The notes under the pieces are model-generated. The model was not told the DNA's origin and did not search any database. It saw only the letters and a program-made list of their open reading frames with translations. A stretch of DNA of 64,000 bases. It comes from Bacteriovoracaceae bacterium. Lineage in GTDB: Bacteria; Bdellovibrionota; Bacteriovoracia; Bacteriovoracales; Bacteriovoracaceae. This document shows, in pieces, positions 1-56,253 of this stretch. Where the stretch lies: NCBI GenBank assembly GCA_029865945.1, contig JARXAH010000014.1, positions 1 to 64,000 of the forward strand, given 5' to 3'. The position numbers and the translations under genes were made by a program. Within the stretch, counting starts at the first letter, position 1, and the number at the start of each line of letters is the position of its first letter.

Positions 1-401
1 CACTAGATCGCACGCTTTCGATTCCCATTTTACAACAGACAAGTATCTATGGAGAATTTTTTGAGCATTGGGTATTCCTAGAGCTTTATAAAAATGCGAA
101 TTACTTAAGACTTGATTGGAAGTTTTCTTATCTTTCTACAAAAGATAACGCAGAGATTGATTTTATTATAGATCGTCCAGGAAAATCGCTATTGCTTGTG
201 GAAATTAAATCCAAAATACAAGTTGAAAAGAAGGATGCCAGACATCTATTTTCCTTAGGTGATGAAATGGAAAAAGTCATGATAAAAGCAAAAAAACCAA
301 GACCTGAGAGATATTTGCTATCACAAGATTCCATCGAGCACGACTGGGGAACAGTGAAGGCGCTACATTGGCTTAAAGCAATGGAACTTTTCTTTAAATA
401 A
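1..401 (+). CDS. DUF4143-type AAA ATPase, C-terminal part (cut by window edge)
   Basis: The reading frame is open from base 3 to the TAA at 399-401, so only about 132 C-terminal residues are in the window. The fragment matches the end of the intact ATPases nearby: a YGEFFEHWVFLEL segment, then FSYLSTKDNAEIDFIID and LLVEIKS. In this family that region is the DUF4143 / PD-(D/E)XK-like C-terminal domain that follows an AAA ATPase module. The acidic and lysine residues of an E-x-D...E-x-K arrangement are visible (AEIDF, VEIKS). The Walker motifs lie upstream of the window and cannot be checked. It is the first of five such genes in 8 kb. The family is well recognised; the substrate is unknown. 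Confidence 0.85.
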   Translation, partial: LDRTLSIPILQQTSIYGEFFEHWVFLELYKNANYLRLDWKFSYLSTKDNAEIDFIIDRPGKSLLLVEIKSKIQVEKKDARHLFSLGDEMEKVMIKAKKPRPERYLLSQDSIEHDWGTVKALHWLKAMELFFK

Positions 402-495
402 ATTTTTCTCTAACTGTAAATTATTTTACTGTTTAAGTTAGTTAGTCGGTTAAGGATTTATCATTATATGGTGATTGATTCCTAGGTTGTTAGCG

Positions 496-538
496 GCCAA
501 TTAAAAAGGGACATCTCCGCCAATTAAAAACGGACAAT
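496..538. repeat. Tandem 19-20 bp repeat resembling an insertion-sequence end
   Basis: Two direct copies of a GCCAATTAAAAA-GGACA unit lie at 496-514 and 519-538, the second with one internal change. Closely spaced AT-rich repeats containing CCAATTAAAAAGGGACA resemble the multiple terminal repeats of IS21-family elements. No istA or istB gene is present, so at most this is a solo end or remnant. The identification is from memory of such ends and is uncertain. Confidence 0.35.
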
Positions 539-550
539 TTCCAAAGGAAG

Positions 551-754
551 TTGTTTATGAATAATTGGATGAACGCTACTGAGTCTGATCGTGATCTTAT
601 GTACGCCGCAAGCCTTATTTTCGATAAGCGCCCGGAACTCTACAAGTTTTTCTTTCACCCCGACAAACCTCAGCTCAAAGAAAGCAAAGAAAGTGCAGAA
701 AGAAAGTGCCAGCACCCCGCTGTTATGAGACTCGCGTCAATTGGGCGGCAGTAA
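551..754 (+). CDS. Small doubtful ORF running into a REP repeat
   Basis: The frame encodes 67 aa with no domain I recognise. The first 40 residues (ATESDRDLMYAASLIFDKRP...) look amino-acid-like rather than random and follow the IS21-like repeats. The last 20 residues are encoded by the inverted repeat at 703-742. It is probably a gene fragment whose original end was replaced by the RAYT element. It may not be expressed. Confidence 0.2.
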   Translation: MFMNNWMNATESDRDLMYAASLIFDKRPELYKFFFHPDKPQLKESKESAERKCQHPAVMRLASIGRQ

Positions 755-1506
755 CAATTTCTTGGGTTTTAAAGTATTTTTATCTAGCGATGGCAAAAAA
801 TGAGTACGCCTTAAGGCCATCTTAACTACTTCATCATCCATATAATTTTCGTTGTTAAAAAATGAGAGCAAGGTTTTGTTATCATGATCCAAATTCATAT
901 TGACCGAAACGAATTTTGATAAAATTACCATTTTTTCTTTGGCCGTACTGTAGGGATAGTTTTCAACTTTTTTTACTAAGCCCGCTCGCACAGGATTACG
1001 GAAAACATATCTCATAACATTGTAATAATAATTCTGATTTTCAATGATGCACCACTTATATCGCCCGCCAAATTTCTGATTAATTGCGCCACTCAGGGAT
1101 TTTAGTTTTTCAGAAAAATTTTTATTGAAATTCATCATAAATGAATCAATATCATTATTGGGAGTCGTTGCGACTAAGTGGTAATGGTTTGCCATGAGTA
1201 CAAAAGCATGAATTGAAATGGGTGCGTTTTTCTGTGCAACCTCTAACGCCATAATACTAATATCCCATACCTCATTTAGGGGAATTGAAAACCAGTCCTT
1301 GTTATGAGATCGACTTGTAATATGGTAGGGGTGCGAGCTTGTTCGAATGAGAAGTCTTCTTGGCATTAAGAAATAATAAATTAATTATCTAAGACTAAAA
1401 TCTTCAGAGTAGATACTCGTCCATAATATTTTAAATTTAAAATAAAAATTTAATTTATAATTTAAAAATTGACGCAAGACTCATAACAGCGGGGTGCTGG
1501 CACTTC
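703..1506. mobile_element. RAYT element bounded by about 40-bp inverted REP-like repeats
   Basis: The left end (703-742) and the right end (1467-1506) are inverted copies of about 40 bp with only about three differences. Each consists of a palindromic head with core GTGCCAGCAC, a short spacer, and a tail reading ATGAGACT-GCGTCAATT from the left end inwards. The single gene inside is a REP-associated tyrosine transposase, which is the known arrangement for RAYT genes. The outer flanks of both ends are rich in pyrimidine on the strand leading away from the element. Related ends occur at 3909-4170 and, more weakly, at 5571-5602. Confidence 0.8.
737..1366 (-). CDS. REP-associated tyrosine transposase (RAYT, Y1_Tnp / IS200-like)
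   Basis: This 209-aa protein belongs to the Y1 transposase superfamily, single-strand DNA nucleases that recognise hairpin-forming repeats. It starts with the typical RAYT opening MPRRLLIRTSSHPYHIT. The metal-binding HUH motif is in FVLMANHYHLVATTP (about residues 56-70). The catalytic tyrosine is probably in the NYYYNVMRYVFRNPVRAGLV segment (about 112-131), whose RNPVRAGLV ending is characteristic of RAYTs. Its stop codon lies inside the left inverted repeat, and the second repeat lies about 100 bp upstream of its start. All key motifs are present, so the enzyme may be active. Known members process REP sequences rather than move as classical IS elements. Confidence 0.9.
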   Translation of the reverse strand: MPRRLLIRTSSHPYHITSRSHNKDWFSIPLNEVWDISIMALEVAQKNAPISIHAFVLMANHYHLVATTPNNDIDSFMMNFNKNFSEKLKSLSGAINQKFGGRYKWCIIENQNYYYNVMRYVFRNPVRAGLVKKVENYPYSTAKEKMVILSKFVSVNMNLDHDNKTLLSFFNNENYMDDEVVKMALRRTHFLPSLDKNTLKPKKLLLPPN

Positions 1507-1717
1507 TTTTCCTTTCTTCTTTTCCTTTTGCTTGCATAATTAATATCGTAGAGGCTTGTTCATTTTGTGCCACAAATGAAGAAAAGTTTATTTTATATAA
1601 CCACACATCTTCCTCGGATTTCGTTTTGACGAGCCGATAATAGCAGCGGTAAGTTGGAAATTCTTTTTTGAAATTCTTAACAAGGGAAAGTATAGTATTT
1701 ACAAAAAGGTAGTTTTA
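1507..1717. other. Gap between RAYT element and HEPN gene
   Basis: A pyrimidine-rich stretch follows the right inverted repeat (1503-1531), then AT-rich DNA without a convincing ORF. It must hold the promoter of the HEPN gene, but I see no clear -35/-10 pair. Together with 1367-1466, which holds only AT-rich sequence upstream of the transposase, it completes a 350-bp non-coding interval. Confidence 0.4.
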
Positions 1718-2107
1718 ATGAGCAATAAAAAACGCGCCAAAGACTGGTTAAATCAGGCGATTAATGATTTGCGTTATGCCAAAGAGGGGATCAAAACTCA
1801 ATTTTATTCACAGGTTTGTTTTATGTCTCAGCAGGCAGCAGTAAAAGCAATTAAGTCCATCGCTTATCACAAAGAGTACGACATCAAAGGACACTCCATC
1901 GCAAAAATCGCTAAGGCCATCGGATTAAACTCTGAAGTTGAAGAAGCGGGAAAAAGATTAGACATCTATTACATTTCTTCAAGATACCCCGATGCACTAC
2001 CAGAGGGTGCGCCGTTTGAATTTTTTTCTTTAGAACAAGCTAAAAATGCCGCAATCGATGCCGAAATCATCATTCAAAAAGCGAAGATGGAGTTGCTTCA
2101 TGAATGA
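1718..2107 (+). CDS. HEPN-domain protein (toxin-type partner of an MNT nucleotidyltransferase)
   Basis: This 129-aa, mostly helical protein matches the HEPN family: an N-terminal A-x-x-DL-x-YA helix (LNQAINDLRYAKEG), a central FMSQQAAVKAIKSIAYHK helix, HS at about residues 58-59, and the LDIYYISSRYPDA segment at about 82-94. HEPN proteins in such pairs are RNases or substrate-binding partners neutralised by an MNT nucleotidyltransferase. The canonical R-x4-6-H RNase motif is not obvious here; SRYPD lacks the histidine, so catalysis is doubtful. The stop codon overlaps the original ATG of the downstream MNT gene (2100-2102), a tight translational coupling. The downstream gene is interrupted by a MITE, which may leave this protein unbalanced or free. 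Confidence 0.8.
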   Translation: MSNKKRAKDWLNQAINDLRYAKEGIKTQFYSQVCFMSQQAAVKAIKSIAYHKEYDIKGHSIAKIAKAIGLNSEVEEAGKRLDIYYISSRYPDALPEGAPFEFFSLEQAKNAAIDAEIIIQKAKMELLHE

Positions 2108-2603
2108 AACAAAAATTATACCAAATCCGTTTAATCTTCATCTACGTTGTCGGCCATCGACTTCTTCGGAATCCAAATCGTTGGATTCCTCAACCTGCGA
2201 CGTGCATTAGCACGTCTCGTCGTTTCAGCCTCGCCCTCCTAGTACCTGAAAATTAAACGGAATTGGTATTACTAAAAAAATTTCTTTCCTTAAGGATAAA
2301 TCTAAAGAAAATTTTATTTTGGATTTACAGGCGCTACTTAAAGGCAAAGTGGAGAGCGCCTATATTTTTGGTAGTTTCAATACTCCGGAATTCAATGCCG
2401 ACAGTGATTTGGATTTAATTTTAGTATGTAACACCGATCGATTATTTGTGGAGCGCCCTTTGGATTTTCCTGAGATTCTTTCCTTGAATTTTGAGGTTGA
2501 TTTATTAGTTTATACTCCAGAAGAATTTGAAAAAATTTCTAAAGAAGAAAATAAAGTAGGATTTTGGAAATCCGCTTTTTCGCAAATGCAAAAAATTATT
2601 TAA
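2100..2603 (+). pseudogene. MNT-type nucleotidyltransferase interrupted near its start by a MITE
   Basis: The ancestral gene can be rebuilt. It starts at ATG 2100, overlapping the HEPN stop, encodes MNETKI, and continues in the same frame after the element at 2119-2268. Removing the element and one copy of the flanking TTA (153 bp in all) gives MNETKITKKISFLKDKSKEN and then the conserved body. The body holds the nucleotidyltransferase signature FGSFNTPEFNADSDLDLILV (GS plus D-x-D) and a third acidic residue in FEVDLLVYTPEEF. The inserted DNA carries an in-frame TAG, so translation from the native start ends early. A shortened protein of 94 aa could start at TTG 2319 and keeps the whole active-site motif, so function may survive. 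Confidence 0.8.
2119..2268. mobile_element. MITE copy 1 (150 bp) inside the MNT gene
   Basis: The ends are imperfect inverted repeats beginning TACCAA-TCCGTTTAAT. The element is flanked on both sides by TTA (2116-2118 and 2269-2271), consistent with a 3-bp target duplication. The centre contains the hairpin GACGTGC-atta-GCACGTC (2199-2216) followed by CTCG-CGTTTCA and a TCCTAG motif. This core is shared with copies at 32062-32186 and 26064-26190. No protein is encoded. A TTA (T-N-A) duplication is typical of the IS1031 branch of the IS5 family, so an IS5-type transposase elsewhere could mobilise it; that is inference. Confidence 0.85.
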
Positions 2604-2623
2604 CGTATGAGAGAGCTTAATCG

Positions 2624-3823
2624 TTAAAGAGAAAAAATTTCTTTCATGCCGTCTAAATAGTTCATTATTTTAATTCCCGAACTCACTCTGGCTATCTTCG
2701 CCCTACACAATAAATATTTCTTTGAAGTAGGAAAATCATCTGAAAAGTTTTTCAATCCACTTAAATGTTCTTCTTGAATATGATCAGCTGACTTAATTTC
2801 CACAAGAATAATTTCTTTCTTACTTTTTTCAATAATCAAATCGATTTCTACTCCTGCCCCAGTTCTGAGGTAAGAAAATTTCCAATTTTTTTCATAGTAG
2901 TGATTCAATCTAAAAATTTCCACAATAACATATTGTTCAAAAAGTTTACCATACTCGTAAGTTTTAGGTGAAAGCTCGATATTTATTTCTTGGGAAATGG
3001 CCCTTGCAATACCACAATCGAAAAAATAAAACTTGGGCGCCTGTTTCTGACGTTGCCTAACGGACTTCGAATATGGTTCCAGGAAAAAACCTAAAAAAGT
3101 ATCACTTAATATAGCGAAATATCTCTCGACACTTTTTGAGGAAATTCCGGCCTCACGAGCAATATTAGTGTAGTTAATTATTTCCGTATTACACTGGCCT
3201 GCAACCTCCAAAAAAGAGCGAAACGGATCGATATTTCTTATTAATTGTTCAACTAATATTTCTTCTTTTATATAAATTTGCAGATAGGAAAGTAAAAATT
3301 TTCGTTTATCAGAATCAGAATGAAACGAAAAAAGGGATGGTAACGATCCGTAGCTTAGTACTTGGTTTAAATTAAAATTTTTTCCTAACTCAACAAAAGT
3401 TAACGGATGTAATTGGTAACTAAAGGCCCTTCCAGCGAGAAGATTGGCAGCATCTCTTTTTAATTTTCTGGCACTAGATCCAGTGAGTGCAAATTTTAAT
3501 TTTTTGCTAAAAATCAACTTATGAACAACGTCGAGTAGTTTGGGAATTTTTTGAATTTCATCGATGATCACCCATTCCAATTGAGAATTTCTGGCTTCAA
3601 CCATTTCTTCAAGTTGATTTGGATGAACTGATAGTACTTGTTCAATGGATGGATCTAATAAATCTAAGTATAACACTTTAGTATTATCTGAAAGGTTGTT
3701 TTTAAGACTTTTTTTTTGAGATTCAAAAAATTGGTTTAAAAGCCAAGTTGATTTTCCTGTGCCACGTGGGCCAAATAGAAAAAAGCTATGAGAGAGAGAT
3801 GGATTAATTAGCCTTGAATACAT
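2624..3823 (-). CDS. DUF4143-type AAA ATPase
   Basis: This intact 399-aa protein has an N-terminal AAA module: Walker A in FLFGPRGTGKSTWLL (about residues 16-30), Walker B in WVIIDEIQKIP (about 84-94), and the family signature TGSSARKLKRDAANLLAGRA (about 115-134) followed by HPLTFVEL. A winged-helix-like middle region (NIAREAGISSKSVERYFAIL) leads to the DUF4143 C-terminal domain with EIDLIIE and ILVEIKSA, which form a PD-(D/E)XK-like site. Substrates of this family are unknown; members are typically accessory and found in multiple copies. The gene ends 18 bp from the MNT gene, facing it. Its upstream region carries the RAYT-type repeat at 3909. Confidence 0.9.
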   Translation of the reverse strand: MYSRLINPSLSHSFFLFGPRGTGKSTWLLNQFFESQKKSLKNNLSDNTKVLYLDLLDPSIEQVLSVHPNQLEEMVEARNSQLEWVIIDEIQKIPKLLDVVHKLIFSKKLKFALTGSSARKLKRDAANLLAGRAFSYQLHPLTFVELGKNFNLNQVLSYGSLPSLFSFHSDSDKRKFLLSYLQIYIKEEILVEQLIRNIDPFRSFLEVAGQCNTEIINYTNIAREAGISSKSVERYFAILSDTFLGFFLEPYSKSVRQRQKQAPKFYFFDCGIARAISQEINIELSPKTYEYGKLFEQYVIVEIFRLNHYYEKNWKFSYLRTGAGVEIDLIIEKSKKEIILVEIKSADHIQEEHLSGLKNFSDDFPTSKKYLLCRAKIARVSSGIKIMNYLDGMKEIFSL

Positions 3824-3908
3824 ATGTCTAAATTGTCGTTCATTTCCGACACAAAAGCAAACAATATAATGGGCACAAAGATAAAAGGAATGAATAAGAA
3901 AGACGGCC

Positions 3909-4170
3909 GGGGTGCTGGCACTTTTTTCATGAGACTTGCGTCAAATTAACTTCTTATTCAAGATCAGTTTTGAAACAAAATTTCTAGTACTAAGTATTCC
4001 AAATGCTTTCATGATATGTACGGTCACGATTAGGACATTGAGGGTTATTAATAACTTGAAGCATAATCTTTTTATGACATCACTTGATAAGCATATCATT
4101 AAAAATCAAGTCACATCTGACTCAACCACCACTTTGACGCGACTCGAATAACAGAGAGGTGCTGGCAGTT
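3909..4170. mobile_element. Non-autonomous or decayed RAYT-type element
   Basis: The left end (3909-3945) reads GGGGTGCTGGCAC and then ATGAGACTTGCGTCAA. The right end (4134-4170) reads TTGACGC-GACTCG-AATAACAG and then AGGTGCTGGCAG. These are degenerate versions of the ends of the RAYT element at 703-1506, in the same tail-inward arrangement, but enclose only about 190 bp of AT-rich DNA. The short frame across it (3936-4151) has no recognisable product and I treat it as chance. The flanking parts of the 474-bp intergenic interval (3824-3908, 4171-4297) show nothing else beyond the presumed promoter of the next ATPase. Confidence 0.6.
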
Positions 4171-4297
4171 CTTCGCTCGTCCTTATTCGCTCTTTCTTCA
4201 TCCCTTTTCAAAGTGGCCACATTTTACCACGCTGCAAATTAGTCTAGACTATTTTGCAGCATGGTGTAAAATTGTCATATTACCAAGGACGCTAAAA

Positions 4298-5410
4298 ATG
4301 AGATATTTAACCACTCACATAAAAAAAGATCTTCTAAAAAAGATGGTTTTTCTTGGTGGGCCTAGGCTAGTTGGCAAAACAACTCTAGCAAAAGAAATCC
4401 TCGATAACAGCAATGGCCATTACTTTAATTGGGATAGATCGACGGATAGGAAAAAAATTTTAAGTGAAAACTGGAATGATTCAGAAGCTTTACTCATTTT
4501 TGATGAAATTCATAAATTTCCAAAGTGGAAAAATTTAGTTAAAGGAATTTATGATACCCAAAAAGAAAAACACCAATTTTTAATCACTGGTAGTGCAAGA
4601 CTTGATATTTTTAGGCGTGGAGGCGATAGCTTACTCGGACGCTACCACTATTGGAGACTCCATCCTTTTTCTTTAGATGAATTACCTAAAAAATTGAGTA
4701 AGTCAGAAGCATTTAAACGCCTCATGAAAGTCGGAGGTTTTCCAGAACCATTTTTAGACAACAATGAACGCGAAGCGAGACGATGGAGGGAAGAAAGATA
4801 CGATCGTATCATTAGAGACGACATTCGCGATCTTGATAATGTTAAAGATATCCAGTCGATGTCACTTCTCCTGCAACTTTTGCGTGAGCGAGTTGGTGGC
4901 ATGATTGTTGTCTCTAATCTTGCCCAAGATTTACAAGTTTCTTCGGCGACTGTTAGTAAATGGATTGAGATTTTTGAAAAAATGTATTTAATATTTACCA
5001 TTAGGACCTACACTAAAAATTTACCGAGATCACTAACTAAACCATTTAAAGTTTATTTTTTTGATAATGGAGACGTCATTGGTGAGGAGGGGGCTGTCTT
5101 TGAAAATTTCGTTGCTTCTCATCTATTAAAAATGTGTCACTTCAAACAAGATTATACCGGAGAAAAATGGGAACTTGCCTATCTTCGAGACAAAGAACAA
5201 CACGAAGTTGATTTTATTATTTTGAGAGATGGAAAAATTGTAGAACTAATTGAGACAAAATTTTCTGATAAAAATATCTCATCTTCACTTATTTATTTTG
5301 GTGAAAAATTAAAGGCACCTAAAATTACGCAAATCGTAGCAAACTTTCATTCCACGCAAACGAGAAATAAATTACAACTAACAAATCCCATTGAGTATTT
5401 TGTTAAATGA
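4298..5410 (+). CDS. DUF4143-type AAA ATPase, short variant
   Basis: This 370-aa protein has Walker A in FLGGPRLVGKTTLAKEIL (about residues 18-35), Walker B in ALLIFDEIHKFPKW (about 64-77), and the TGSARLDIFRRGGDSLLGR signature (about 96-114) followed by HPFSLDEL. The middle has a helix-turn-helix-like stretch, NLAQDLQVSSATVSKWIEIF. The C-terminal nuclease-like domain shows HEVDFIILRDGK and a matching ELIETKFSD strand. It is clearly diverged from the other copies here, so it is not a recent duplicate. Function is unknown beyond ATP binding. The start at 4298 is supported by AAGGA about 9 nt upstream. Confidence 0.9.
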   Translation: MRYLTTHIKKDLLKKMVFLGGPRLVGKTTLAKEILDNSNGHYFNWDRSTDRKKILSENWNDSEALLIFDEIHKFPKWKNLVKGIYDTQKEKHQFLITGSARLDIFRRGGDSLLGRYHYWRLHPFSLDELPKKLSKSEAFKRLMKVGGFPEPFLDNNEREARRWREERYDRIIRDDIRDLDNVKDIQSMSLLLQLLRERVGGMIVVSNLAQDLQVSSATVSKWIEIFEKMYLIFTIRTYTKNLPRSLTKPFKVYFFDNGDVIGEEGAVFENFVASHLLKMCHFKQDYTGEKWELAYLRDKEQHEVDFIILRDGKIVELIETKFSDKNISSSLIYFGEKLKAPKITQIVANFHSTQTRNKLQLTNPIEYFVK

Positions 5411-5570
5411 GGGGCCGCGATTATTAGCGGCTAAATTTTAAGAAGCAAGAAGTGTGAGTAGCCGGGGGGCGGGCGCAAATCAATTTCCGAGACAGTATCA
5501 GTATTGAAACTTTCACTTTGTTTTGTATAGATGGCGAATCAACTACCTTTTTCCTTAGAATACTTATCAC

Positions 5571-5602
5571 CGGGGTGATGGAACTTTTCCTCCTTTTCAT
5601 CT
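5571..5602. repeat. Degenerate REP-like repeat head
   Basis: CGGGGTGATGGAACTTTTCC followed by a pyrimidine-rich stretch resembles the right RAYT end at 1490-1520 (CGGGGTGCTGGCACTTCTTT), with two substitutions in the palindromic core and a 2-bp gap. No tail sequence is recognisable. Similarity this short could be partly chance, although the pyrimidine-rich continuation is shared too. Confidence 0.4.
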
Positions 5603-5650
5603 TACACTACACTCAGAATCTATGAAATTACTCAATAATATCATTGACTT

Positions 5651-5680
5651 GGCAGATATGAACACTTGTTCATATCTGCC
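5651..5680. promoter_or_regulatory. 30-bp perfect palindrome upstream of an ATPase gene
   Basis: GGCAGATATGAACA is followed by CT and then its exact reverse complement TGTTCATATCTGCC, giving 14 bp in each arm. It lies 50 bp before the ATG of the ATPase at 5730. No T-run follows, so it is not a typical terminator. An operator for a dimeric regulator or an mRNA hairpin would both fit the position. Confidence 0.6.
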
Positions 5681-5729
5681 AGACCGTGGGAATTCAGTGA
5701 AAATAGAGTAAGTCACTGGAGTTATTCTG

Positions 5730-6917
5730 ATGAATACTTGGATTACACGAACGCTTGAATCTGTATTAGAAAATAAATCAGGGCCACTAAATTCTTTCCC
5801 TATTATTTTAATCACTGGCCCACGCCAAATTGGAAAAAGCTCAATACTTAAAAAATATGGACCAAATTTTCAATATATTACCTTTGATGATAGAGAAGCA
5901 CGCACTCGAGCAAACCAAGATCCGGCACTTTTTTTGAAAGGGTTAAAGGCACCCTTTATTCTCGATGAAATACAATATGCACCTGAACTCTTAAGTTATC
6001 TTAAAATATTAGTGGATCAAGGACTCCCACCAAAAAGCATTTTTCTAACAGGATCACAATATTTTCAAGTAATGAAAGGTGTTCAAGAATCTCTTGCTGG
6101 TAGAGTTGCGATCATAAACTTATATGGCTTTTCAGATAATGAAAAAAGAATAACTCATCAAAATCCTATTCAATATTTTGAAAATATTTTTGAAACTACT
6201 TTTCCTAAATTATTTGGAAATACCGATGTTGATGAGCGCGCCCTATACCTCAGTAGTTACTTACAAACATATGTAGAACGCGATATTAGTGAACTTCTAG
6301 GATTGCAAAAGCGTAGAGAGTTTGAAATTTTTTTAAAAATTTGCGCTCTAAGAACTGGGCAAATAATTAATTACGATTCAATGGCCAAGGATGCCCACAT
6401 ATCTCCTTCCATTGCAAAAGATTGGTTGAGTGTTCTTCAAGATAGTTTTCTTATAAAAATTGTTCAACCTTTTCATTCAAATAAATCCAAACGGCTTATT
6501 AAATCTCCAAAACTTTATTTTCTAGATACGGGACTTGCTACCTACCTCGCTGGGTGGAAGTCTCCAGAACAGCTTTATCTTGGGCCGCAAAACGGTGCTT
6601 TTTTTGAAAATCATATTTTTACCAACATATTAAAAAAGTATCGACATGCTGGCAGAGAGGTAGATATAACTTTTTGGAGAACGAGAGATCAACAAGAAGT
6701 TGATTTCATTGTTGAAACATCTAAAACTACTTATCCTGTTGAAGTTAAAATGGGTTCAGTTTCACCCCAAGAAATTTGTGATTTTCAAAAAATTGCTGAA
6801 AATGAAAACTGGGATGAAGGGAAAATTATTAGTTTATCGGCAGGAATCACACCTATCTATATTAGGGAAAAATGGAAAATGTATTCTCCTAATCAATTTT
6901 TGAAACTGGATCTTTAA
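5730..6917 (+). CDS. DUF4143-type AAA ATPase
   Basis: This intact 395-aa protein has Walker A in LITGPRQIGKSSILKKY (about residues 27-43), Walker B in FILDEIQYAPELL (about 75-87), and the sensor segment FLTGSQYFQVMKGVQESLAGR (about 104-124). The middle has a helix-turn-helix-like YDSMAKDAHISPSIAKDWL. The C-terminal domain carries FWRTRDQQEVDFIVE and PVEVKMGS, the nuclease-like acidic and lysine residues. GSQ-F--M--V-ESLAGR marks a different subfamily from the copies at 2624 and 7019. A 30-bp palindrome lies just upstream. Role unknown. Confidence 0.9.
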   Translation: MNTWITRTLESVLENKSGPLNSFPIILITGPRQIGKSSILKKYGPNFQYITFDDREARTRANQDPALFLKGLKAPFILDEIQYAPELLSYLKILVDQGLPPKSIFLTGSQYFQVMKGVQESLAGRVAIINLYGFSDNEKRITHQNPIQYFENIFETTFPKLFGNTDVDERALYLSSYLQTYVERDISELLGLQKRREFEIFLKICALRTGQIINYDSMAKDAHISPSIAKDWLSVLQDSFLIKIVQPFHSNKSKRLIKSPKLYFLDTGLATYLAGWKSPEQLYLGPQNGAFFENHIFTNILKKYRHAGREVDITFWRTRDQQEVDFIVETSKTTYPVEVKMGSVSPQEICDFQKIAENENWDEGKIISLSAGITPIYIREKWKMYSPNQFLKLDL

Positions 6918-7018
6918 ATTGAAAAAATTGGAATATTGATTTGGGGTTGGAAAGACGCCGCAATTTTTTTAATTAACTTAATTGCAGAATTACAAATTTC
7001 AAATTTCAATCGGAGAAC

Positions 7019-8170
7019 TCAGAACAACTCTTCATTCCACAACATTATTAAAAATTTATTGACTGGGATTAAAGAAATATTGTCCGAGTTTTTGCGTGAA
7101 CTACTACAAGTGCAGACACATATTTTTTGCAGCTTAGGAAATTCTTCCGCGAGTGCATTTAGGCCTTTATAATCTCTTGCGGAGGGATTGGACTTGGCCT
7201 TTACTTCAATTCCAAATATTTTTGTACCTAGCTCTAAAACAAAGTCGACTTCGAATTTGGATGTGGATCTCCAATAGGAAATTTCAAGCTCTTTTCGTTT
7301 GTAATCCTTAAAAGCACATAACTCTAAAAAAATTAATTGCTCTAAATTTTTTCCATATTCAGGAGTACCTGTTGCAATTTCTTTTCGCTTCAAAATTGCG
7401 TTGCCTATTCCGATATCAAAGAAATAAAATTTTGCTGAACTCATGGCCTTTCTGGTTTTAGTTTTAAGAAAAGCTGGCAAAAGGTGACCAACTAAAGTGT
7501 CTTCTAAAATATGAAAATAATCGATAATTGTTCTCGGAGGAATTTGGGCATCACTTCCGACTTGAGTAAAGTTAACTTGCTCTGATTGACATAAGGAAGC
7601 AACTTGCAAAAATCTGGAAAAATTTTCGATGGATCTTGATAAACCTTCGGTGTGAATTTCTTCTTTTAAATATAATCCCACATAATCAGATAAATCCTCA
7701 TGTGGTTATTCTGATTCCAAGATCGCAGGGAGAGAGCCCACGTTAATGACTCTCTCCCAAGCTACAGCATTTTTACTTGTCGTATACTCAGGAAATGCCA
7801 GAGGATGAAAATAAAAGCGAGACAGTCTTCCACCAAGTAAATTACTACCTGAACGTTTCAATTTTCGAGCGCTTGAACCAGTTAAAATAAATCTTATTTC
7901 TTTGTTGAGTTCAATCTGCCTATGAATCTCATTCATGAGAATAGGAATTGATTGTATTTCGTCGATAATAAAAAGTTTAAAAGATTTTTTTTCAAAAGAA
8001 ATTATTTCTCCAAGGCGCTCTGGATGTGAGGTAAGTTCTTGATAAAGGCTTGGCCTTAGTAAGTCCATGTAATAGGCGTCAGGAAAATTGGACCTCAACT
8101 AAGTGGATTTTCCAGTCTGCCCGGGTACAACATTTCATGAGTTTCCACCACCGATTTTCATCAAAATCGG
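7019..8170 (-). pseudogene. DUF4143-type AAA ATPase pseudogene with two in-frame stops
   Basis: One reading frame carries the whole conserved body but is broken twice. A TAG at 8099-8101 lies directly after a Walker A remnant (PGQTGKST), and a TAA at 7706-7708 lies after LPAILESE. Both flanks of each stop are conserved in the same frame: RSNFPDAYYMDLLRP after the first, PHEDLSDYVGLYLKEEIH after the second. The family signature TGSSARKLKRSGSNLLGGR and the C-terminal FEVDFVLE / GIEVKAKS are intact. Sequence upstream of the Walker A motif has lost the expected N-terminus. It is closest to the 2624-3823 copy by the SSARKLKR signature. Point nonsense mutations without frameshifts suggest fairly recent inactivation. 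Confidence 0.85.
8151..8170. other. Hairpin, 8-bp stem
   Basis: CCGATTTT, loop CATC, AAAATCGG forms a perfect 8-bp stem. It lies where the N-terminus of the ATPase pseudogene would be expected. There is no T-run after it on either strand, so its role is unclear. Confidence 0.4.
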
Positions 8171-51502: not shown

Positions 51503-53257
51503 GTGAGATCCAATTTTTTATTAATCATTATTGCTCTATTCACGCACCACTGTTTAGCGGCGCCTGTCGCTCTTTTTTACTACACGAGTGACACCCACGG
51601 ACGATACGATCCCGATCGATTACAAAAAGAAATTATCTATCTAGAAACCCTAAAACAAGAGGCAAAGAGCAAGAATATACCGCTTATTATTTTACATAAC
51701 GGTGATTTTTATACTGGTAGTTCAGACCTTAACGGCCACTACGATGCCCTGATTTATAAAATTTACGGATTAAATGTTGCCACTGTGGGTAATCATGAAT
51801 TTGATTGTAAAAAATGTTTTAAAAATATGATGGACATCCTCGGAAAAGAAACCTTTATCTCAAGTAATATAAATTGGATATCAAGACCCGGCCCCGATGA
51901 TCACACCTTTGAGTTTAGGCCATTTCGCTATATTGAAATAAATGAGGACACCAAAATTGCCATCGTGGGAGTTACCGATCGCAATACTCAAGTGACAAGC
52001 GGATCATCATTTTCAAAAGAATTCACGTTCAGCGATCCCTTTGAATCCGTTTCAAACGTGATACACAACCTACGCGTACGGGATGATTTTCAAGGCACCA
52101 TTATTCTTCAATCCCACCAGGGATATTATGAAGATATCGCCCTCTATGAAAAACTTGAAAATTTCTTTATTAAGCAAAACATAAAAGGCATTGATGTTAT
52201 TTTAGGTGGACACACCCACATGAAAAAACATGAAACGATTGGAACAACGCTTAAAATTCCCATCATCCAGCCAGGTGCTTATCGAGACAGTTTATCTAGA
52301 TTTGAACTGGATTTAACTGACGGAAGGCTTGGCCTTAAAAATTTTTCGCGCACACCTCACTCCGCTGTTTCTAAAATACCTCCCTCTTATTTTTTTAATT
52401 TTGCTAGCTATGTCGAGGCAACTAATATAATTGGACAGTGGGGAGAGAAACATAAGGAAAAAATTATTTCTTTGTCCAAGAAATATGGATTTGGGAACGA
52501 AACTTTTCTCTCCGTACCAACTTCGGAATTTGAATTAATTCCTAGGGCCTACGCTCCTGACTTACGAGATGATGACTTCTTCAAGACACAACTCTCACTT
52601 GATGAATTTATTGCAGAGGCATTTCTTCAATATGGAATTTCAAAATTTGCTGACTCTAAGGAATTTATAAATCTTGGCCTCAGCATGCGTGGGGCCATTA
52701 GAAATATTTTGCGTCCCGTAGGAGTCGATAATTATTTTCATATCGATATTGAAGACATAGATGAAATCTTACCCTTTCATGAAAAAATGACCATGGTCAC
52801 TTTTTCATTTTCACAATTCTTAGATTATGTCGAAAAGCTACTAGCAATTAATAAAACTGCGCCTGCCAAGGGTAGCGCGTTTTCGCCAACATCAGGCATC
52901 GACTTAGAGGTTTTATCAAGAAGCTCGGTTGACCTTAAATCATTTTTTGAAAAAAAATTTTCCTCCCTATCAAATTTTCCAACTGATCAATTAAAGATCC
53001 GAGTTTTTATGCCTAAATATTTTGCGGATGGGGGAGATCACTATCCGAATCTTAAAGATAACTTAAGCTCTCGTTTAAGCTACCAATTTTCAAACTCAGA
53101 TACTGACACTGATCTTTCGGTAGTGAGTCAATTCATTCGTCAAATTGGAAGCAACATTGGATCAGATCGATCTTCTATGATGAGGACGTTAGAGTTAAAT
53201 AGGATCAAGAACTCGTACCGTCTTCCATGTGCCTATTTTGCTATGCCATTAATTTAA
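51503..53257 (+). CDS. Secreted 5'-nucleotidase / metallophosphoesterase
   Basis: The start is GTG 51503. The 584-aa protein has a signal peptide (LLIIIALFTHHCLA). The two-metal phosphoesterase domain shows FYYTSDTHGRYDP, ILHNGDFYTGS, VATVGNHEFDCKKC and VILGGHTHMKKHE in order. The C-terminal 5'-nucleotidase domain follows (FINLGLSMRGAIRNILRP with substrate-binding residues, FMPKYFADGGDHYPNL near the end). It would hydrolyse nucleotides in the periplasm or outside. The 77-bp repeat that precedes the next gene begins at its stop codon. Confidence 0.9.
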   Translation: MRSNFLLIIIALFTHHCLAAPVALFYYTSDTHGRYDPDRLQKEIIYLETLKQEAKSKNIPLIILHNGDFYTGSSDLNGHYDALIYKIYGLNVATVGNHEFDCKKCFKNMMDILGKETFISSNINWISRPGPDDHTFEFRPFRYIEINEDTKIAIVGVTDRNTQVTSGSSFSKEFTFSDPFESVSNVIHNLRVRDDFQGTIILQSHQGYYEDIALYEKLENFFIKQNIKGIDVILGGHTHMKKHETIGTTLKIPIIQPGAYRDSLSRFELDLTDGRLGLKNFSRTPHSAVSKIPPSYFFNFASYVEATNIIGQWGEKHKEKIISLSKKYGFGNETFLSVPTSEFELIPRAYAPDLRDDDFFKTQLSLDEFIAEAFLQYGISKFADSKEFINLGLSMRGAIRNILRPVGVDNYFHIDIEDIDEILPFHEKMTMVTFSFSQFLDYVEKLLAINKTAPAKGSAFSPTSGIDLEVLSRSSVDLKSFFEKKFSSLSNFPTDQLKIRVFMPKYFADGGDHYPNLKDNLSSRLSYQFSNSDTDTDLSVVSQFIRQIGSNIGSDRSSMMRTLELNRIKNSYRLPCAYFAMPLI

Positions 53258-53332
53258 AGTAATACATTTTTGCCCGGTTTAAACATTTAGACTTCGGTGT
53301 CAAAATCATAAAGCAGGAGCAAATGAACAATG
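53256..53332 (+). repeat. Upstream duplicate A (leader of tandem paralogue A)
   Basis: These 77 bp match 54846-54922 at about 70 positions without gaps and end at the start codon of each paralogue. The block includes AGGAG at 53315, 10 nt before the real ATG (53330). It also contains an earlier ATG (53323) that opens a 4-codon frame ending TAA inside the gene start, present in both copies. The block probably contains the promoter and was copied with the gene. Confidence 0.75.
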
Positions 53333-54664
53333 TTTAAAATTTATTTCTTATTCATATTTTTTTTTCTTTTAGCCTTTCACACATTTGCAGATCCCATTGA
53401 TTTTTCATCTATACAAAAGCTTGATATTATAAAGAAGTACCCTGAATTATTAATTTTGCTGAAAAAACACCTAGAATACTTAGAGAAGAAGAATTCTAGA
53501 CTAAGGGAAGAGGTTGCTGGTGAAATTAATTTTAGCGAATACTTCGAAACTAACAACGTTGGAAAAAATTTAATTAAAGAATTAGAGAAAATAATTTTTT
53601 TTTATAAAGCTCGCTGCGATTTCACGAATTCACAATTTCCAGAAGGATCTATTGAATTTTTCAATAACGTAAACCAACAGAACACCGACCAAATAAAAAA
53701 TATAATAAGCAGAATTAGACAGAAAACTAGCACCTATAAAGATTATTTTTTAGCCAAGGAGTATTTATTAAGCTACTACGACGTCTTGACTCTAAAAGAA
53801 GCTGAATTGCGTTTTACGGATAAAATTACAAACGAGGTAGCAATAGAAAATGCTAAAAATGATTTAGTACTAAATGATATTAGTCAAAACATTCAAGTGA
53901 GGCAGGATTTTGGAAATTTCATTTTTGAATATCATCCTACAGGAGTAATAAGCAGCTCAAGCGGAGGAGTCAACACAGGAAGAGACGCGGGTTCTAATAC
54001 TGTCTATAACAGGAATTTTTCTACCCTACATAGTACAATTCTGGAATTTAAAGATAAAGATATTGCTTCCTTTGATTGCGCACTTTGAAACACCTCTGCA
54101 CCCTTGAATTTAAAAGACATTGCTGAACTTTTTCTAGCTGGAATCAATCCATCAGCACTAACTAAAATTTTACTAAATGCTGATGGTTATCTAAACTTTA
54201 TCGCAAGTATTTTTAATGATCATGACTTATGGGCACATGGCAGTATAATGTACTCGCCATTAATTCCGAGTCAAATTTATTATCCCCTTCAAAGATTTTT
54301 AGCTCTCCAGGGAAATCTTGAAAAATTGAGAAATATTTATTTAACAGAAATGGATAAAGCAAATAAAACGAAAATTTTTGCTGATTTTTTTAAACCTATT
54401 TTATATTTTTTTTCCAAAGGCCATGAAAGAGGTTCCCAATTCCAGACATTACTCACACAAATCGATATAAACCGTATCTTAGATTATTTAAACGACCCTA
54501 ACTTTTACGGAGGTACAGAACCGTGGAAGTCAATGAACTTAAGTGCAGAAGTACCTGATACTTTTGATATTAGTTTAATGGAAGGTTTCTCTATTTTTGA
54601 AAAGGCAATCCACAACTTGGTTAACTGCAGCACAGGAAATTGTGACTATTGCACGGTCAAGTAG
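53330..54664 (+). pseudogene. Tandem paralogue A, secreted protein with in-frame TGA
   Basis: The whole 445-codon frame is open except for TGA at 54086-54088. The N-terminal part has a signal peptide (YFLFIFFFLLAFHTFA) and DPIDFSSIQKLDIIKKYPEL; the C-terminal part has LNLKDIAELFLAGINPS, KGHERGS, NFYGG and ends in a C-x5-C-x2-C motif (NCSTGNCDYC). Homology to paralogue B runs straight across the stop: FDCAL-stop-NTSA aligns with FDGPIWNSAA, so the TGA sits exactly at a Trp (TGG) in B. TGA is used as an ordinary stop elsewhere, so a nonsense mutation is the default reading. The family is unrecognised. Confidence 0.75.
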
Positions 54665-54845
54665 GGTCTTCCAAAATTTGCTATTAAAAAATCAAGAAGG
54701 CTAATTAGCGAAATTTATAATTGAGAAAATGAATACCCCCCCTGAGTATTTTTAAGATTTCTTTCAACGACAACCACTTATTTAACAAGGTTTAGTCCAC
54801 ATCAGACAAATTATAAGAGCAGATTTTTTTAGTCGTTACCAATTA

Positions 54846-54922
54846 AAAGTAATACATTTTTGCCCTGTTTAAACATATGGACTTCGATGTCATAATCATC
54901 AAGCAGGAGCAGATGAACAATG
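54846..54922 (+). repeat. Upstream duplicate B (leader of tandem paralogue B)
   Basis: Second copy of the 77-bp block at 53256-53332, about 90 percent identical, ending at ATG 54920. AGGAG, the short out-of-frame ATG and the TAA are all retained. The 180 bp before it (54665-54845) shows no gene. Confidence 0.75.
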
Positions 54923-56253
54923 ATTAAACTTAATTTCTTGTTATTTTTATTTTTTATAACTCAACTTAATTCTTTTGCAAAACCTTTAGATTTGGCGACT
55001 ATAACAAAACTAGAAGTTGTCAAAAATCATCCAGAACTAATACGTCTTCTGGAGGCTCATCAAAAATTTATACAATTATTTGACTCCGGCGGCACCAGCG
55101 CGGATGTTGATTTTTCTGCTTATTTCAATACTGGCACAGTCGGAAGAGACGTCATAAATGAATTGGAAAAGGTTATTAATTTTTACGATGTTGAAATCGA
55201 TGCTACAGGTAATTTCAATGGGGAATCATTGGCTTTTTTTAAAAATGTAAACGAATTAAATAATAATCAAATTAAAGAAATTATTAATAGAATTATGAAT
55301 AGTACAGTTACCTACCAAGATTATTTTTTAATTCACAAGCACTTACTAACCTACTACGACATTATAACTTTTTACGAAGCCCAGCTTCGCTTTGTTAAGA
55401 ATTTAACGGATGTAGATATAATTGAAGATCTTAAGAATAAATTAACACTTAAGGATATAATCCCAGAAATTAAAGTAGGAGGTGGTGGTGAGCGTTATTA
55501 TTATACTTATTTGCCAGAGGGTGTACTCAGTAACGCCCATAATGAGAAAAATCCCAAAAAAATATACAGCCAAGATGGATGCCTTTTAAACAATCAAATT
55601 GTAAACACGTTGATGCTATACTGAGTGTTTTCGATGGACCAATATGGAATTCTGCTGCTGAATTAAATTTGAAAAGTATTGTTGAACTATATTTGGCGGG
55701 AATATATCCATCAGGATTAACCAAGAAGCTTTTAAGTGCTGATGGATTTCTAAATTTTACGGCCGCTATCTTTAATATGCATGATTGGTCTGGACATGGA
55801 GAGGCAAGAATGTATATCAATTTGCTTTTTAGTCTTACTAAAGAAAGTTCGTTGCAAGAAAGATTCAACCTTCTTCAATCAATACTAGAAAAATTCAGAG
55901 ATTTATATCTTCGAGAAATAAATTTTGCAAAAATTTCAAAGAATTTTTCCGATTTTTTTAATATTATTTCATTTTTTTTTAAAAATGGACACGAGAGAGG
56001 TTCTGTCTTCGATGTCTTGATCCTAAATGATTCCGACGTAAGCAGGACAAAACTTGAACTTGATTATAAAGTTTTCAATGATCTAAATTTTTACGGAGGA
56101 ATTGCACAATGGAAATCAATGGGCATAGATGTAGATAATTGGCCTAAAGAAATTACAATGAATTTAATTATTGGAGCTCATAAATATTTTAATGATTTAG
56201 CTGTGCCAATTTCATGTTTGGTTGGGGATTGCAATAAGTGCATAACAAAATAA
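54920..56253 (+). pseudogene. Tandem paralogue B, secreted protein with 1-nt frameshift
   Basis: Two overlapping frames carry the halves: 54920-55624 with a signal peptide (FLLFLFFITQLNSFA) and KPLDLATITKLEVVKNHPEL, and a frame closing at 56253 with LNLKSIVELYLAGIYPS, NGHERGS, NFYGG and the C-terminal SCLVGDCNKC. A 1-nt deletion is implied, most likely in the run of seven A at 55556-55562. With one more base the gene has 445 codons, exactly the length of paralogue A. Both halves are conserved relative to A. It may be a real mutation or a homopolymer sequencing error. Confidence 0.75.

Follow-up and report, generated by a model that had tools for sequence, protein, structure and literature searches.

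Of 378 pseudogenes of Salmonella, 346 were found to bear only one inactivating mutation (Kuo and Ochman 2010, PMC2916853). A study of in-frame stop codons argued that, in bacteria, many of them are maintained under purifying selection and may be subject to readthrough; genes presumed to undergo readthrough were recognised by the presence of the same stop in the orthologues of at least two species (Belinky et al. 2021, PMC7918605). Genes with programmed frameshifts have been grouped by a conserved frame transition together with a sequence motif (GeneTack, PMC3711429), and a tRNA-Trp with an anticodon stem of 4 bp has been described as a route to the reading of UGA (PMC13092985).

The locus considered here is a pair of tandem paralogues, A and B, in a contig of a Bacteriovoracaceae bacterium, from which a stretch of 64,000 nucleotides (the window) was analysed (Table 1). 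Each gene is broken once, and both breaks probably reflect an independent and recent pseudogenisation. According to this explanation, A and B would have arisen long ago, when the gene of a two-domain exported protein was duplicated in tandem, and both would have remained full-length under purifying selection until recently. A would then have suffered a nonsense mutation from TGG to TGA, presumably by one G-to-A change, and B a small insertion or deletion around 55600-55612, so that both would now be young pseudogenes making at most a truncated N-terminal part. The lesions in the sequence, the age of the divergence, comparable past constraint on both halves and the absence of detectable suppressor machinery are shown by the analysis; we infer that the cell really carries the lesions and that the truncated products are without function.

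The alignment of A with B agreed with the sequence-only reading, which had placed the TGA of A at 54086 opposite a TGG of B between homologous flanks. The residues match on both sides (FDCAL*NTSAPLNLK / FDGPIWNSAAELNLK) and, as judged from the aligned sequences, it is beyond doubt that neither this correspondence nor the homology of the two genes can be attributed to chance. The same reading had given both genes 445 codons once repaired, a length that B indeed reaches with one extra base, and had located the interruptions between an N-terminal and a C-terminal domain. Structure prediction confirmed this split. Modelled in full, the protein gave a poor structure (pLDDT 49), with no confident structure in the linker; the mature N domain alone gave a confident model (pLDDT 87) that is helical with a terminal beta hairpin. 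A search of PDB and BFVD with this N-domain model returned no fold match. Beyond the breaks, neither the C part of A nor that of B contains a further lesion, and each is otherwise intact over about 190-210 codons. Chance decay had already been proposed from the letters of the DNA, and the finding of a single independent lesion per gene in otherwise intact frames favours it.

Table 1. Positions of the features discussed, numbered from the first letter of the window
Feature	Position	Strand	Remarks
Leader of A	53250..53332	+	predicted hairpin over the ribosome-binding site
Paralogue A, whole gene	53330-54664	+	ATG start, in-frame TGA, TAG end
Paralogue A, N-terminal part (252 aa)	53330..54085	+	open frame ending in TGA; predicted signal peptide and helical domain
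In-frame TGA of paralogue A	54086..54088	+	opposite TGG (Trp) of B
Paralogue A, C-terminal part	54089..54664	+	same frame as N part; TAG at 54662-54664
Leader of B	54840..54922	+	same element; stronger predicted hairpin
Paralogue B, whole gene	54920-56253	+	ATG start, frame change, TAA end
Paralogue B, frame 0 (234 aa)	54920..55624	+	TGA at 55622-55624
A7 run, lesion site in the sequence-only reading	55556..55562	+	disfavoured; lower BLOSUM62 score
Likeliest site of the B frame change	55600..55612	+	frame-aware alignment to A
Paralogue B, C-terminal part	55613..56253	+	other frame; TAA at 56251-56253
AAA_14/DUF4143 ATPase, decayed	8098-7019	-	in-frame TAA at 7708-7706

The frame that encodes the C-terminal part of B is open over 55546-56253, and the frame change is permitted anywhere in 55546-55624, where both frames are open. 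Frame-aware alignment of the A protein to the B DNA placed the shift at about 55607 at every frameshift penalty tried. When all permitted junctions were scored against A, those at 55600-55612 were the best (BLOSUM62 805-807), and a junction at the A7 run reached 784, which is 22-23 units (half-bits) lower. The claim that B needs one extra base was therefore upheld as to the base but not as to its position near the A7 run, where a lesion appears unlikely in a comparison that uses one homologue and falls in a variable linker. The better placement of the lesion 40-50 nt downstream weakens the idea that the A7 run had been misread during sequencing. The same displacement counts against phase variation, in which slippage in the A7 run would toggle the C part of B. 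The run does lie inside the region where both frames are open, but the plus strand of the window contains 48 runs of A7 or longer and slippage in B would leave A unexplained, so that this mechanism is scarcely credible.

A more general form of the error explanation, in which the genes are intact and one or both lesions are absent from the cell, draws on the facts that the genome is a draft assembly of 103 contigs and that each lesion amounts to one base. It would require, however, one substitution and one indel within 2.7 kb, the second of them better placed outside the A7 run. None of the 49 matches to ABC_tran in the genome contained an internal stop, and the 43 genes counted in the window were all open. 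The assembly thus looks clean, which makes sequencing error a minor alternative, and an unlikely one. Among the matches to DUF4143, 1 of 24 had an internal stop. The window itself holds a decayed AAA_14/DUF4143 ATPase, in which the first 31 positions of the AAA_14 model are missing and which lies beside intact relatives at 2624-3823, 4298-5410 and 5730-6917. The occurrence of pseudogenes in the genome, together with the absence of internal stops from the ABC_tran matches, makes gross sequencing error unlikely, although a one-base error may still have occurred at either site. As a separate observation, the 24 matches to DUF4143, the companion domain of these ATPases, are found in a genome of 3.1 Mb (positions 1-8100 of the window included) and many of them are clustered on contigs C15, C72 and C84, which looks like an expansion.

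Recoding would offer a different account of the two breaks. UGA readthrough in A and -1 frameshifting in B would yield an N-terminal protein together with some full-length fusion, and the position of both breaks in the same linker and the lesion-free C parts are as expected from it. Near-cognate readthrough of UGA is never zero. The decoding machinery of the genome, however, gave no indication of a special reading of UGA. The tRNA search returned 31 matches, with 150 of 181 first-look candidates scored in an assembly that is 96% complete, and no UCA anticodon was present among the tRNAs read by ARAGORN. The suppressor tRNA-Trp that had been proposed as a check did not appear: one tRNA-Trp was found (ARAGORN), with anticodon CCA and a fully paired anticodon stem of 5 bp (ACTGA/TCAGT). 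Where the classical UGA suppressor has A, it carries G. Selenocysteine insertion at the UGA was rejected, as all matches to tRNA-Sec fell under the cut-off and included ordinary serine, leucine, threonine, tyrosine and aspartate tRNAs. Genome-wide reassignment of UGA was rejected as well, given that RF2 is present above the cut-off and that TGA is the stop of 7 of the 43 window genes. These include a GalU-like and a glycerol-kinase-like gene (named by eye), in which the next stop follows 2 and 4 codons on. From the presence of RF2, the TGA-ending genes, the normal tRNA-Trp and the absence of a tRNA-Sec above the cut-off, it follows that TGA works as an ordinary stop in this bacterium.

In paralogue B, an in-frame T TTA AAC heptamer was found at 55585-55591. 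It precedes the best junction by 9-21 nt, and a shift there would score only 8 units below the best site, but heptamers of the X XXY YYZ type occur in frame at 1.6% of the codons of intact window genes, so that 0.41 would be expected by chance in the overlap of B. At the best-scoring shift position itself, no slippery site is present. Folding of the RNA 3′ of the heptamer was no better than that of shuffled sequences (z = 0.03, -0.04 and -0.08), and no stimulatory structure was detected there. The frame change is absent from paralogue A, the only homologue available for comparing the frame transition of B. Recoding would also require two unrelated mechanisms for two paralogues and, with no clear orthologue found, conservation in other genomes does not speak for it. 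The recoding suggested in the sequence-only reading thus finds no support in the decoding machinery or in a stimulatory element of B, and we regard it as very unlikely. Its evolutionary version, in which A and B convergently gained different recoding signals at the same domain boundary and make mainly the exported N protein with little full-length fusion, is highly improbable.

The duplication that gave rise to the pair is old, as indicated by third codon positions, of which only 40-43% agree between A and B (about 57-60% differ). Amino-acid identity is 40% in the N part and 46% in the C part (p = 0.17). The values of dN are about 0.45-0.56 and similar in both parts; dS is saturated, which makes these values rough. 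Both parts thus appear, from this comparison, to have been under purifying selection for most of the time since the duplication. If the C parts had decayed neutrally to a divergence of 3-5%, about three further lesions would be expected (at an indel/substitution ratio of 0.1-0.2). Their freedom from lesions means either that the breaks are young or that the C parts are still translated. The C part of A lacks an upstream ATG; no Shine-Dalgarno sequence can be seen before its first TTG (54104), and the part contains no signal peptide.

These values also bear on the idea, raised earlier, that selection favours the N-terminal part by itself as the product and that the loss of the C part was adaptive in both copies. 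Both lesions spare the confident N domain, and truncation occurred independently at almost the same place. The C part, however, shows at least as much conservation as the N part over the time since the duplication, so that nothing favours selection for the N part alone, and the idea was not sustained; selection for such a product is very improbable. The proximity of the breaks, which are separated by about 13 aligned codons when the B lesion is placed at its likeliest site, and fall within the same linker, is an observation that counts against decay by chance. Two random lesions in 445 codons would fall within 13 codons of each other with a probability of 0.06 and within 33 codons with a probability of 0.14, figures that have to be read with a distance criterion picked after the fact. 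Closeness of this order is not remarkable, and the two lesions are taken as independent since they differ in kind and in position.

The leaders of A and B, 83 bp including the start codon, are identical at 74 of 83 positions (89%), far above the identity of the third codon positions of the two genes (p = 2e-18); the genes behind them are about 55-57% identical at the DNA level. No further copy of the leader was found elsewhere in the genome, and the leaders matched no Rfam family. In both, the predicted hairpin pairs the Shine-Dalgarno region, with folding z of -1.3 for A and -2.9 for B. The similarity could come from selection on a shared control element or from gene conversion, and so strongly conserved a leader suggests that A and B were co-regulated until recently. 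In both genes a four-codon open reading frame (ATG AAC AAT GNT TAA) runs across the start codon in another frame (53323-53337 and 54913-54927); it is possibly incidental.

The family to which A and B belong is an orphan. Searches of 129 family-level and 369 phylum-level genomes, of GTDB contigs and IMG/VR, and of plasmids and phages yielded no clear orthologue. Weak matches in two of the genomes were not accepted as orthologues: they cover about 80 residues with one-genome E values of 4e-4 to 6e-3, and up to 369 genomes were searched. Sequence searches of Pfam, NCBIfam, PHROGs and PDB gave nothing significant. A match of the N part of A to Pfam Ndd (E = 7e-4) lies under the curated cut-off and was set aside; the N part of B had no Pfam match at all. 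A signal peptide is predicted at the start of the N part of A, judged by eye from the sequence, and it is only from this signal-like N terminus that the product would be considered an exported protein. The family is lineage-specific and without a recognised fold, and is found in only one sequenced bacterium.

Taken as independent pseudogenes, A and B represent an ordinary event, in which a lineage-specific family of exported proteins recently lost both of its copies in parallel; recoding, if true, would make the locus a rare example of convergence on recoding at a single domain boundary. The comparison with the described systems can be drawn along the same lines. Like the genes grouped by GeneTack (PMC3711429), B consists of two overlapping open frames that jointly match one protein; unlike them, it lacks a conserved frame transition, a slippery site at its best-scoring junction and a stimulatory structure. 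The system with the 4-bp stem (PMC13092985) resembles this locus in that UGA takes the place of a Trp codon of the paralogue and in that only a tRNA-Trp(CCA) was found. Here, in contrast, the stem is 5 bp long and fully paired, which closes that route, the genome has an RF2 and ordinary genes terminate in UGA. The published argument for readthrough of in-frame stops (PMC7918605) counts against simple decay. A shares with the presumed readthrough genes of that study one in-frame stop within a frame that is otherwise preserved, but those genes carry the same stop in their orthologues and none were found for A. The Salmonella pseudogenes (PMC2916853) differ from the present pair in that here two neighbouring paralogues were hit, with no intact orthologue as a reference. 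Like the young pseudogenes among them, A and B contain one lesion each, a point mutation or a short indel, and have kept the rest of the reading frame.
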